From Candidatus Eremiobacterota bacterium (GTDB lineage: Bacteria > Vulcanimicrobiota > CADAWZ01 > Ess09-12): a stretch of DNA of 64,000 bases. How positions within the stretch are numbered: the first letter of the stretch is position 1; each line of letters begins with the position of its first letter. The notes under the pieces are model-generated. The model worked only from the letters and a program-made list of their open reading frames with translations, was not told the origin of the DNA and ran no database searches. A program made the position numbers and the translations under genes. The stretch lies in NCBI GenBank assembly GCA_031082125.1, contig JAVHLM010000006.1, positions 188,026 through 252,025 on the forward strand, written 5' to 3'. This document shows positions 8,161 through 61,751 of the stretch, one piece after another.

Positions 8161-8203
8161 ATTATAGCATACCCTGGGGCCTTTTGTGTTGCGAAAATGT
8201 TAA
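8161..8203 (-). promoter_or_regulatory. Promoter with two 11-bp-spaced TTAACA-like boxes
   Basis: Read on the minus strand: TTAACA (8198-8203), five bases, GCAACA (8187-8192), then exactly 20 bases to an extended -10, TGCTATAAT (hexamer at 8161-8166). No good -35 hexamer is present, as expected when an activator site replaces it. It precedes the 117-residue gene. The box spacing and the 20-bp gap to -10 match the site at 52510-52563. Confidence 0.55.
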
Positions 8204-8317: not shown

Positions 8318-9190
8318 CTACTGGCCGTTGATGAGCTTGTTCACGCCGCCCATCATGGGGTTGAAGGCCTGGTTCCCAGTCTGGCTCTGCTGGGTGTCAG
8401 TCACACCCGACATGGTAAGGGCTGTCTTCACGAGCATCTGAGTCTCGGGGCTTACCTGGGCGCCGTCCTGCTGGCACTGCTGCCAGTCGGAGGTCAGCTG
8501 CTGCACTGCAGGGCTTGTTCCTTGGCCTGCGCCCCCGAAGCCTCCGTCTATGCCGCCCATTCCCTGGGGTCCGCCTCCCCCGATCTGCTGCGTCTGGCCC
8601 ACGTTGCCCACGCCGCCCACGCTCTGGGTGGCATTGAGGCCCTGGGCCTGGCCCGCCTGAGGCACGCCGCCCTGGGCGGCGTTCTGGGCACCGGCAATGC
8701 CCTGCATTTTCTCGTTGATGACATTCATCACGTCATCCTTGAGCTTTGATTCCCAGTCCTGGCCACCCTGGCCTGCCTGCTGGGCGGGAGCGGCCTGCTG
8801 GGCAGGAGCTGCCTGCTGGGCTTCCTTGGGAGCGGCCTTGTCCTCGGCCTTCTTGTCATCCTTCTTATTGGCAAGCGATTCGACCATCTTCTTGAGGTCT
8901 TCTATCTGCTTCTTGAGGTCATCTATCTCCTTCTGCTTCTTCTCTTCGGCTTCCTTTTCTTTCTTTTCTTTTTCCGCGTCGGTTTCCTTGGTATCTTCCT
9001 TTTCGTCGGTCTTATCTACTTTGTCTGTGGTATCGGTCTTGGTTTCCTTGGTTTCCTCGGTTTTCCCCGCTTCCTCGCCCTTCCCCGTATCCTTGGCTGC
9101 CGCCGTGTCATACTTGGAAGTGGTCTCCTGAGTCTTGCTGGTGCCTCCGCCTACCTCGCCAATTTTGCCAATCGCATCATCTTCCGCCAT
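8318..9190 (-). CDS. Low-complexity coiled-coil protein of unknown function
   Basis: About 290 residues, not recognised. The layout is a Thr/Lys/Glu/Asp repeat-like tail at the N-terminus (about 10-80), a coiled coil (KEIDDLKKQIEDLKKMVESL, about 85-110), Ala/Gln repeats (AQQAAPAQQAAPAQQ), and a Gly/Gln-rich half with repeated GG turns. No signal peptide or membrane segment is seen. I chose ATG at 9190 because GGGAG lies 8 bases before it; the ATG at 9208 has no ribosome binding site. Upstream lies a promoter with 10-11-bp-spaced boxes, downstream a terminator, so it is a single-gene transcript. Polar, low-complexity, coiled-coil composition would suit an exported or scaffold protein, but that is inference. 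Confidence 0.65.
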   Translation of the reverse strand: MAEDDAIGKIGEVGGGTSKTQETTSKYDTAAAKDTGKGEEAGKTEETKETKTDTTDKVDKTDEKEDTKETDAEKEKKEKEAEEKKQKEIDDLKKQIEDLKKMVESLANKKDDKKAEDKAAPKEAQQAAPAQQAAPAQQAGQGGQDWESKLKDDVMNVINEKMQGIAGAQNAAQGGVPQAGQAQGLNATQSVGGVGNVGQTQQIGGGGPQGMGGIDGGFGGAGQGTSPAVQQLTSDWQQCQQDGAQVSPETQMLVKTALTMSGVTDTQQSQTGNQAFNPMMGGVNKLINGQ

Positions 9191-9287
9191 TTCATTTTCT
9201 CCCTTCATTTATAATTTTTTATCACTCTTTCCTTCAAGGCTCCCTCGATCTACCTTGCCGGGAAGCTGATAGTTCCTTGTCTTATAT

Positions 9288-9362
9288 GTTATCACATCTT
9301 TCCTTCTGGCAGTTAAGAGATCCCATGTTAACATTTTGTCACAAATATGAACGAAATGTAAG
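9288..9362 (-). promoter_or_regulatory. Promoter with four TTAACA-like boxes
   Basis: Minus-strand boxes CTTACA (9357-9362), GTTCAT (9347-9352), GTGACA (9337-9342) and TTAACA (9326-9331) are spaced 10, 10 and 11 bp. They are followed by -35 TTAACT (9311-9316), a 17-base spacer and extended -10 TGTGATAAC (hexamer 9288-9293). Only the last two boxes are convincing. The box-to--10 gap is 32 bases, one more than at the 43.5 kb site. It serves the gene at 8318-9190. Confidence 0.45.
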
Positions 9363-43493: not shown

Positions 43494-43569
43494 ATTATGC
43501 CATTTCCTCTGAGAAATGTAAAGCGCCTTTTGTTAAAATCATGTTAAGATATCTTTAAAATAATGTTAA
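43494..43569 (-). promoter_or_regulatory. Strong promoter with four 11-bp-spaced TTAACA-like boxes
   Basis: Minus-strand boxes TTAACA (43564-43569), TTAAAG (43553-43558), TTAACA (43542-43547) and TTAACA (43531-43536) are each offset by exactly 11 bp. They are followed by -35 TTTACA (43517-43522), a 17-base spacer and -10 CATAAT (43494-43499). The last box ends 31 bases before -10. It serves the 84-residue gene. Direct repeats at a helical period are typical for OmpR/PhoB-type response regulators. Confidence 0.7.
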
Positions 43570-51536: not shown

Positions 51537-52361
51537 TTATTTCACAAGCTGGATGGCCTGTTCCAGCAGTTTGTCCATCGCCCTGAAAGCGGCGAAATTG
51601 GCGTTGTAATTGATCTTGGCCATACCGATCGCCGCTGCCTGCTGGGCATAATCCACATTGGCAAGCTCGACGCTGTTCGGTACCACCTGTCCCAGGGCTC
51701 CCTGGCCCGACACGCCCTGCACGGCCTTGCCGGAGGTCTCCGACTCGGAGAAGGTGGTGGTGCCGGAGCGGGTAAGGCCCGAAGGGTTGGCGAAGCTTGA
51801 GAGGGCCATCTGGTAGATGGGCACTGTCTCCTTCACCTGCTGGCCCGTGACGGGATCGCTGATGGTGCGCTCGCCGTACATCTTGCCCGAGCTGTCAAAG
51901 CTGAAGTTGTCGTACTGGCCCATGAACTTCTGCGTGGCGGGGTCAAGGCTCATGTCGATGTCGGTGAGGCCGCCCGAGATATTCCCCTGGGCATCGAGCT
52001 TGAAGGCTTTCGCTTTCATTCCTGAAGCCTCGTGGACAAGCTTGCCCTCTGCCGAGGGCACGAAGCGGCCGTCGCGGCTGAAATGGGTGTTCACGCCGTC
52101 AGACAGGTTGAAGAAACCGCTCCCGTTGATGGCGAGGTCATACATGCGGCCTGTCTGGGAGATGGCGCCCTGGGTAAAGATGATGCTGTTCTGTTTCTTC
52201 TTGGCCTTGCCCGAGCTCCCGGTGGATCCCATCAGATCGTTGAAATTGACGGCCTCGGCCTTGAAGCCGGGGGTGAACTGGTTCTGCAGATTGTTGAAAT
52301 AGGTATTCATCATCTGCTGGTTGTTCATGATATTGCTGGCCTGGTTGTTCATGTCAAACAT
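51537..52361 (-). CDS. Flagellar hook/rod family protein (FlgE/FlgG-like)
   Basis: 274 residues. Central hook-basal-body domain (AISQTGRMYDLAINGSGFFNLSDG, FSRDGRFVPSAEGKLVH) and C-terminal helix (NSVELANVDYAQQAAAIGMAKINYNANFAAFRAMDKLLEQAIQLV) are typical of rod/hook proteins, short as in FlgF/FlgG. The usual N-terminal pattern NNIANVNTxGFK is only partly kept (MNNQQMMNTYFNNLQNQFTPGFKAE), rich in Asn/Gln/Met. Which of FlgE, FlgF or FlgG it is cannot be fixed; position between fliK and fliM fits hook protein. It has its own promoter with three boxes. Confidence 0.8.
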   Translation of the reverse strand: MFDMNNQASNIMNNQQMMNTYFNNLQNQFTPGFKAEAVNFNDLMGSTGSSGKAKKKQNSIIFTQGAISQTGRMYDLAINGSGFFNLSDGVNTHFSRDGRFVPSAEGKLVHEASGMKAKAFKLDAQGNISGGLTDIDMSLDPATQKFMGQYDNFSFDSSGKMYGERTISDPVTGQQVKETVPIYQMALSSFANPSGLTRSGTTTFSESETSGKAVQGVSGQGALGQVVPNSVELANVDYAQQAAAIGMAKINYNANFAAFRAMDKLLEQAIQLVK

Positions 52362-52509: not shown

Positions 52510-52563
52510 ATTGTATCAGTCCCATATTGCCAAAATGTTAACACTTTGTATCCAGATTGTAAA
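52510..52563 (-). promoter_or_regulatory. Promoter with three 11-bp-spaced TTAACA-like boxes
   Basis: Minus-strand boxes TTTACA (52558-52563), GATACA (52547-52552) and TTAACA (52536-52541) are offset by exactly 11 bp. The last is followed by 20 bases and extended -10 TGATACAAT (hexamer 52510-52515). No good -35 is present. It serves the FlgE/FlgG-like gene 150 bases downstream. Confidence 0.65.
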
Positions 52564-60526: not shown

Positions 60527-60928
60527 TTAACGGCCGAAGTTCTCTATGATGTACTTGAAGCCGGAATACCTTCCTGAAGCCTGCGACGTGAGGGCTTCGA
60601 ATATCACGCCGTTCTTCGCGAGATCGACCATCTCCTGGTTGATGTCCACCGAGGAGCCGCTCTTCATCACTGCGGGCTGCACCTTACTCTCATCGGTGGG
60701 CATTCCCTTCACCCCCAGGTCGTCGTCGGAGAAGTCGCAGACCACCTGGAAGCCGTCCTTGTCTTCCTTGGCAGTCATACACTTCTTGAGCTCGTCCTCA
60801 AAGCAGACCTTTGAGGGAGCAAAGCCCGGGGTGTTGACGTTTGAAATGTTGTTCGCAATGACCTGCTGCCTCAAGGCGGCTACATCCATTGCTTTCTCAA
60901 AATGCGGGGTGATATTCAAAATATCCAT
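60527..60928 (-). CDS. flgB: Flagellar rod protein FlgB
   Basis: 133 residues. The N-terminal rod motif reads MDVAALRQQVIANNISNVNTPGFAPSKVCFEDEL; the C-terminus holds VDINQEMVDLAKNGVIFEALTSQASGRYSGFKYII. First gene of the flagellar operon, GGAGGG about nine bases ahead of the ATG. Its promoter region with tandem boxes (60961-61041) is shared with the divergent gene at 61305. Confidence 0.95.
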   Translation of the reverse strand: MDILNITPHFEKAMDVAALRQQVIANNISNVNTPGFAPSKVCFEDELKKCMTAKEDKDGFQVVCDFSDDDLGVKGMPTDESKVQPAVMKSGSSVDINQEMVDLAKNGVIFEALTSQASGRYSGFKYIIENFGR

Positions 60929-60960: not shown

Positions 60961-61041
60961 CTTATATGATAAGGATTTCCTGATTCAATCATACTTAACG
61001 GATATTACAGTTTTATTAGCAAAATGTTAACAATGTGTTAA
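60961..61041 (-). promoter_or_regulatory. flgB promoter region with four or five 11-bp-spaced boxes
   Basis: On the minus strand TTAACA (61036-61041), TTAACA (61025-61030), CTAATA (61014-61019) and GTAATA (61003-61008) are offset by exactly 11 bp. A -10 TATCAT (60966-60971) lies 31 bases further, the same distance as at the 43.5 kb site; a sigma70-like alternative is TTGAAT (60983-60988), 16 bases, TATAAG (60961-60966). Because GTTAAC is a palindrome the array also reads on the plus strand (TTACAG, TTAGCA, TTAACA, TTAACT) toward the gene at 61305. Confidence 0.65.
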
Positions 61042-61304
61042 CTTTTGATCCATTTCGATAATCTTTGTAACAAATTTTTCATATTTCACGGCATTTCCGG
61101 GCCTTGGCCCCTTTACTTTTCAAAATGACGTCGTGATATATTCCATAGAAGCCTGCGGGGCTTTCGCTGTGTTTGCCAGGGACTCCGGCACTCCGCGGCG
61201 ATCATGCCAAGCAGGTGAAGAGACAGCATGTCCAGAACTATTATACCCCATGGGTATGACCCGTTCAAGGACTGGGGAGGAAAAAGCCCAAGGAGGTCTC
61301 ATAA
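61042..61304. other. Intergenic region upstream of the divergent gene
   Basis: About 260 bp between the flgB box array and the gene at 61305. A plus-strand -10 candidate GATAAT lies at 61057-61062, 13 bases after the last plus-oriented box, and an inverted repeat TACCC-CAT-GGGTA lies near 61243-61255. No RNA gene or other ORF can be supported. Confidence 0.35.
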
Positions 61305-61751
61305 ATGGATCCCATTGATCCGGCCAGCCTGCAGGCCAAGCCCGGCGGAATGGCTCCTCTCACCGAAGAATTCTACCTCCAGCAGAAAAAGCAGCTCAAA
61401 CAGGCCAAGATGGAGACGACGGCGCCCATGGATGCCCACGACGTCTTCTCTCTGTCACCGGAAGCAGCGACACAGCTTCCCAAGGACAAGTTTGAGAGCT
61501 TCCTGGAAACGGCGAAAAACAACATCCTGAAAATGGATCCCAACTCCAAGAACTTTCTCCCCGACGCCACATCCCGGCTGGTGTCCTCAGCGCTCGAGCA
61601 GGAGTTCGGCGAGGGCATCATCCAGAACCCCGGCTACCCCCAGATGAAAGCGAAGCTCACCAAGCGCATCCTCAGCGATCCGAAGTACCGCGACATCATG
61701 GAAGAGTTCCTGACGCTTCTCAACCTTTCGGAGCAATCATCGAACAGGTAA
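61305..61751 (+). CDS. Protein of unknown function divergent from flgB
   Basis: A 148-residue, mainly helical protein with no signal peptide, not recognised. Residues about 15-40 are polar (TEEFYLQQKKQLKQAKME), then ATQLPKDKFESFLETAKNNILKMD and LVSSALEQEFGEGIIQNPGYPQMKAKLTKRILSDPKYRDIMEEFLTLLN. The GGAGG lies 8 bases ahead of the ATG. Its regulatory region is the flgB box array, so it may belong to the flagellar regulon. The 3' end overlaps the convergent M16 gene by 32 bases. Confidence 0.7.
   Translation: MDPIDPASLQAKPGGMAPLTEEFYLQQKKQLKQAKMETTAPMDAHDVFSLSPEAATQLPKDKFESFLETAKNNILKMDPNSKNFLPDATSRLVSSALEQEFGEGIIQNPGYPQMKAKLTKRILSDPKYRDIMEEFLTLLNLSEQSSNR

Follow-up and report, generated by a model that had tools for sequence, protein, structure and literature searches.

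Helically phased TTAACA arrays as a promoter code in Candidatus Eremiobacterota, probably read by an OmpR/PhoB-family response regulator

The tandem TTAACA boxes considered here lie in a 64-kb stretch of DNA from a Candidatus Eremiobacterota bacterium (the window, G000:C6:188026-252025); the genome, G000, comprises 7.43 Mb spread over 69 contigs. Five promoters of the window carry such boxes at an 11-bp period. The arrays are real and belong to a genome-wide regulatory code common to much of this uncultured phylum: they are specific to promoters, keep their 11-bp period, stand on a fixed face of the helix relative to the -10 element, and are conserved upstream of the flagellar gene flgB. We consider it likely that a global response regulator from the OmpR/PhoB family uses them as its operators. 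Such a control protein probably switches on flagellar genes together with many unstudied, possibly exported proteins.

A preliminary description of the window had proposed that one design, TTAACA-like hexamers at 11-bp steps, is shared by five loci. Scanning both strands with a 22-column weight matrix, built from one third of the genome with the window included, recovered all five and nothing false: scores of at least 11 occur solely at the five named promoters. Boxes and spacings of every array were also read base by base, and the distances hold (Table 1), although the array at 8.2 kb scores weakly (14.0) and the one at 9.3 kb is irregular.

Promoter specificity was assessed in 2.46 Mb, one third of the genome, taken mostly as long contig runs and with genes called by a simple codon-usage caller; a few stretches were picked near matches, so array density is estimated slightly too high. 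Pairs of TTAACA, in which one copy was exact and the other differed by no more than a single base, were tallied for all spacings between 7 and 49 bp. At exactly 11 bp there are 61 pairs in promoter-type intergenic DNA, none in the 2.2 Mb of genes sampled and none between convergent genes, which bears out the expectation that the boxes would favor promoters over genes and convergent regions. Other distances mostly give 0 to 8 promoter pairs, the exception being the harmonic at 22 bp with 23 pairs. The TTAACA peak is by far the largest among all anagrams of the hexamer, the nearest rival, TAACAT, being a shifted reading of the same box. With the matrix at a score of at least 14, arrays occur in 45/713 tandem, 48/301 divergent, and 1/99 convergent intergenic regions, against 13, 4, and 0 in a reversed-sequence control that puts the false-positive share at ~15-20%. 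About 9% of promoter-type intergenic regions (93/1,014) thus bear an array; if the sampled third is typical, our extrapolation gives a regulon of about 280 promoter regions genome-wide. Arrays of two boxes predominate, three to five boxes being present in 26, and the promoters are not copies of one another (one similar pair among 125). Chance might be invoked on the ground that intergenic DNA has a higher A+T content than genes. Its likelihood is negligible, given 59 observed pairs against a mean of 1.1 in dinucleotide-shuffled promoter DNA, the lone sharp peak at 11 bp, the counts by region class, and conservation upstream of flgB across families.

The position of the arrays relative to the promoter is equally constrained. 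The gaps from last box to -10 described earlier for the window were found as given: 20 (8.2 kb), 20 (52.5 kb), 31 (43.5 kb), 31 (61.0 kb), and 32 (9.3 kb). Their whole-helix-turn rule extends across the 64 array promoters with a -10 score of at least 6.5, where gaps cluster at 7-11, 19-22, 30-34, and 41-43 bp (~9, 21, 32, and 42). Rayleigh R is 0.63 at an 11-bp period (nominal p ~7e-12) and 0.60 for tandem promoters alone (n=27); when promoters lacking arrays were assigned box positions drawn from the real ones, R reached at most 0.34 in 500 trials. Part of this ladder may come from continuous arrays in which the box closest to the -10 has degenerated, as seems to be the case at the flgB promoter, but the fixed helical face relative to the -10 holds even then. 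The -35 score climbs with box distance (-0.41, 1.10, 1.88, and 2.65; 1.65 in promoters without arrays), being poor where boxes are near and normal where they are far. The poor -35 elements of the preliminary description are therefore a property of the close-box classes; uniformly weak -35 elements are rejected, since array and other promoters do not differ overall (p=0.85).

Phasing points to activation at sigma70-type promoters. Together with the -35 gradient, it is what an activator touching polymerase from one face, and replacing the -35 when close, would leave behind. A repressor would be an improbable reader of these arrays. Boxes do overlie the -35 region in the closest class, and CtrA sites activate or repress depending on position (PMC11264516), but a repressor has no need of helical phasing that reaches 32 and 42 bp upstream, and poor -35 elements in close-box promoters are expected of activator dependence. 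In the activator model, winged-helix domains would bind head to tail along the TTAACA boxes, each 11-bp repeat taking up one subunit, and the bound regulator, held on a fixed face, would recruit RNA polymerase. Close arrays (~9 or 21 bp) would replace or overlap the -35, and distant ones (~32 or 42 bp) would assist a normal -35. Under such control would come the flgB and hook operons, a second fliF that stands alone, and numerous orphans or hydrolases made without a signal peptide.

Because TGTTAACA equals its own reverse complement, a box can often be read in either orientation. This palindrome, on which many matches score on both strands, could instead be read by a protein outside the OmpR class, such as a nucleoid protein, and the number of arrays is very high for one two-component system. 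We nonetheless regard such a binder as quite unlikely: the boxes run head to tail with an 11-bp period, many of them lack the palindrome (TTTACA, GTAACA, TTAAAG), and the sense reading beats the antisense 36 to 14 in tandem promoters. The arrays also keep phase with the -10, and convergent genes have almost none between them.

Conservation in relatives had been proposed as a check on the pattern, and it is seen at two levels. Across whole genomes, TTAACA-N5-TTAACA was compared with an N6 spacing control (at most one mismatch, both strands). The 11-bp, and not the 12-bp, arrangement is enriched in many families of the phylum, with N5/N6 counts of 139/13 in G000, 73/1 in G006, 24/0 in G015, 63/7 in G016, 36/5 in G018, 120/14 in G026, 37/1 in G028, 213/68 in G012, 59/22 in G008, and 44/25 in G001. 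By the same counts, G002, G003, and family f13 have no N5 excess, and families f9, f14, and f16 have essentially no arrays. Upstream of flgB, an array is kept in G000, G001, G002, G003, G006, G010, G012, G013, G016, and G026, which represent six families (f1, f2, f4, f8, f10, and f12). Nine of these genomes align in the same layout of box, box, AT-rich box, GTAA-type box, and a TATGAT/TATTAT-like -10. Only 1/44 flgB/flgC loci from other phyla scores at least 16.

Nine clear OmpR-type regulators, and three weak matches within long proteins, were found in G000. By elimination, the best candidate is on balance the conserved regulator at G000:C32:24657, with its adjoining histidine kinase. It is 71-91% identical in array-bearing genomes with a full-length copy and at most 56% identical in f9, f14, and f16, families without arrays; in the incomplete genome G004 the match is partial (84%). 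The copies read hardly vary in the recognition-helix region, GDTRTVDVHMRRLRQKIE. By eye, the two genes that follow the regulator seem to encode a PAS-type histidine kinase and a GGDEF protein. Among PDB entries its closest full-length relatives are MtrA and RegX3; the YycF receiver ranks lower. G002 and G003 have just three OmpR-type regulators, of which the C32 and C2 types alone are shared with G000. The C2 response regulator was rejected, as most array-bearing families lack a clear orthologue; none was found in G006, G008, G010, G013, G016, or G026.

The regulator in G000 could otherwise be the C28 response regulator (G000:C28:20914-21633), autoregulated through the same boxes. Its own gene is preceded by four of them at a distance of ~93 bp (GTTACTTTTTGTTACAATTTTTTAACACTTGTTAAC, score 21), and its recognition-helix region, ERSIDIQISRLRRKL, resembles that of E. 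coli OmpR. This assignment seems unlikely: close relatives occur only in G007 and G012 (49-50%), no relative is present in the flgB-array genomes G001-G003, G006, G010, and G013, and neither the G007 nor the G012 relative was found to have an array in front of it, by which a conserved autoregulation is rejected.

Several observations weigh against the main reading, with C32 as its candidate regulator. Family f13 retains the C32 regulator (71-85%) without array enrichment, so that either the operator changed there or the regulator lost its array role. The search for an array within 1.5 kb of the C32 gene came up empty, while the C28 gene has its four boxes. G005 is enriched in arrays, yet its best C32-type match is ~49% (the genome is 62% complete). 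G002 and G003 keep the flgB array without genome-wide enrichment. Finally, f9, f14, and f16 may be GC-rich, in which case their lack of arrays may reflect composition.

Flagellar and orphan genes had been named as the targets. This is correct as far as it goes; flagellar promoters (flgB, the hook-type gene at 52361, and the lone second fliF) are a small minority of arrays, and the targets are for the most part orphans or hydrolases that lack signal peptides, several of them with domains of effector-like type. That fliF (G000:C13:96827-98467) is remote from other flagellar genes, and its array lies ~407 bp before the called start. Most non-flagellar targets have either no Pfam match or hydrolase domains: three clostripains, a 5'-nucleotidase, a metallophosphatase, a non-specific endonuclease, a DNase-I-like protein, and an alpha-amylase. 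Others are an M48 peptidase, a glutamine deamidase, a peptidyl-arginine deiminase, an LF-like metalloprotease with ankyrin repeats, and PQQ propellers. Arrays are found beside housekeeping genes too, most of which are divergent neighbors of an orphan or hydrolase-type target. By a crude hydrophobicity rule, 5/80 targets and 512/1,811 other genes have signal-peptide-like N-termini (p=2e-6). An N-terminal [DN][ST].[STQE] motif is modestly enriched in held-out targets (12/40 versus 99/905, p=0.001).

Several targets, including window genes 8112 and 61305, begin with a disordered-looking segment ending in a D-x-V-x-L-S/G-like motif. This stretch resembles the N-terminus of FlgM, but 20 targets gave no match to the FlgM profile at E up to 1, and membership in that family was rejected on this ground, the resemblance being limited to the short motif. 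A second common N-terminal pattern (xYFQNASHVGM, DYLRNAYQVGA, or DFVRNAQHVGM) precedes the disordered stretch in targets such as C8:166779, C1:127767, and L349. The protein of G000:C4:12094-13515 (L183), with a weak ATLF metalloprotease match, ankyrin repeats, and no signal peptide, is effector-like in appearance.

A tentative and rather doubtful extension is that the array marks a phylum-wide export regulon, in which one response regulator would control the flagellar export apparatus and the signal-peptide-less proteins leaving through it; export by that route is offered as a hypothesis only. The set would include the clostripain-like peptidases, nucleases, 5'-nucleotidase, amylase, deamidase and deiminase, and the metalloprotease with ankyrin repeats. 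If this were true, a repertoire of effectors still undiscovered could be listed from the motif, which would serve as a finder for exported proteins.

The window's single flagellar cluster is encoded by the minus strand, beginning with flgB (60928) and extending to flhA (44144). An open reading frame at 61228-61530 overlaps the divergent orphan gene in a different frame.

Table 1. Boxes, promoter elements, and genes at the five arrays of the window
Feature	Position	Strand	Details
Four TTAACA-type boxes	43531..43569	-	exact 11-bp steps; matrix scores 22.5, 16.2, 19.0
Individual boxes, 43.5 kb	43564-43569 TTAACA, 43553-43558 TTAAAG, 43542-43547 TTAACA, 43531-43536 TTAACA	-	
-10 CATAAT, 43.5 kb	43494..43499	-	31 bp from last box (43531-43536)
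-35-like TTTACA, 43.5 kb	43517-43522	-	17-bp spacer to -10
Gene for small helical protein, 84 amino acids	43201..43455	-	downstream of flhA; 43.5-kb array lies upstream
flgB array	61014..61041	-	TTAACA 61036-61041, TTAACA 61025-61030, CTAATA 61014-61019; scores 25.0, 22.0
Additional weak boxes beside flgB array	61065-61081	-	
-10 TATGAT, flgB promoter	60988..60993	-	31 bp from 61025-61030; 20 if weaker CTAATA counted
flgB	60527..60928	-	Flg_bb_rod match; opens flagellar cluster
Divergent orphan gene	61305..61751	+	shares flgB array; N-terminal AHDVFSLS motif
Array before hook-type gene	52525..52563	-	TTTACA-N5-GATACA-N5-TTAACA-N5-GCAATA; scores 19.6, 16.4, 13.1
-10 TACAAT, 52.5 kb	52510..52515	-	20 bp from TTAACA (52536-52541), 9 bp from GCAATA
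FlgE/F/G-type hook protein gene	51537..52361	-	LlgE_F_G_D1 match
Two-box array TTAACA-N5-GCAACA	8187..8203	-	weak, score 14.0
-10 TATAAT, 8.2 kb	8161..8166	-	20 bp from GCAACA (8187-8192), 31 bp from TTAACA
Orphan gene, 117 amino acids	7759..8112	-	no Pfam match; N-terminal RDTVQVG and DRVSLS motifs
Irregular array	9326..9362	-	CTTACA-N5-TTCATA, then GTGACA-N5-TTAACA; 9-11-bp steps; scores 19.7, 11.3
Probable -10 GATAAC, 9.3 kb	9288..9293	-	32 bp from last box (9326-9331)
Orphan gene, 296 amino acids (290 from ATG at 9190)	8318..9208	-	no Pfam match; N-terminal half disordered, charged

The 84-amino-acid protein belongs to no known family, and a search of viral contigs for it gave nothing. AlphaFold predicts one long helix at moderate confidence (predicted local distance difference test, pLDDT, 78). 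Relatives are present in 18/38 genomes of the phylum, often in several copies and sometimes on flagellar contigs; G000 has two identical copies, in the window and at G000:C2:95531-95782. The C-terminal half is nearly invariant (WKILQDTQTKIFEIQQDVTVNKAKTQDKMFNKWDEYIR). Arrays before these genes are clear in G000, G001, G026, and G028 and weak or absent in f13 and others, so that phylum-wide conservation of arrays at this family is rejected. With an array or without one, many of its promoters (upstream regions L333-L347) share a strong core in which CCCTTTACTT precedes TGATAATA. Most of the f13 genomes G020, G022, G024, G030, G034, and G036 keep both this family and the C32 regulator.

To our knowledge, no transcription regulon has been mapped in this phylum. 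The arrays provide a readable regulatory code for it and tie flagellar genes to scores of orphan genes annotated without function. The four-step distance ladder is also a clean natural test of an OmpR-type activator at one, two, three, and four turns.

Among known systems, the likeness to OmpR-type regulators suggested in the preliminary description stands up: spacing, sequence, and tandem design match the operator class of WalR, PhoP, and PhoB, and binding by a regulator of this type would follow that precedent. WalR/YycF (VicR) of Firmicutes binds two hexamers with a 5-bp spacer and an 11-bp period, as here. Its consensus, TGTWAH-N5-TGTWAH (PMC4168254), reads DTWACA-N5-DTWACA on the other strand, which covers TTAACA and TTTACA, and TTAACA-N5-TTAACA fits it. 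WalR controls cell-envelope genes (PMC9210968), whereas the targets here are flagellar, orphan, and hydrolase genes, and some arrays have 3-5 boxes at several helical registers.

PHO boxes of PhoB/PhoP are likewise tandem 11-nt direct repeats, bound head to tail with sigma70 contact (PMC4415409), but their sequences (CTGTCAT in E. coli, GTTCACC in Streptomyces) are unlike the boxes here. A Pho regulon was rejected, with no PhoU match in G000 (pstS was not searched for); the targets as a group, unlike those of Pho, do not look phosphate-related. CtrA of Alphaproteobacteria, also a response regulator with an 11-bp repeat period, activates ~100 genes through TTAA-N7-TTAA sites (PMC11264516), a spacing contained in TTAACA at 11 bp, and controls flagella in some species (PMC3692519). 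Most CtrA promoters have one site at the -35, however, while boxes here also stand two to four turns from the -10, in a different phylum. In Legionella, PmrA and CpxR each mark many Icm/Dot effector genes, which the operator can be used to find (PMC2701608); the secretion machine and phylum differ, and effector status of the targets here is hypothetical. The mechanism is of a known kind; what is new is the regulon, with the genes that it contains.
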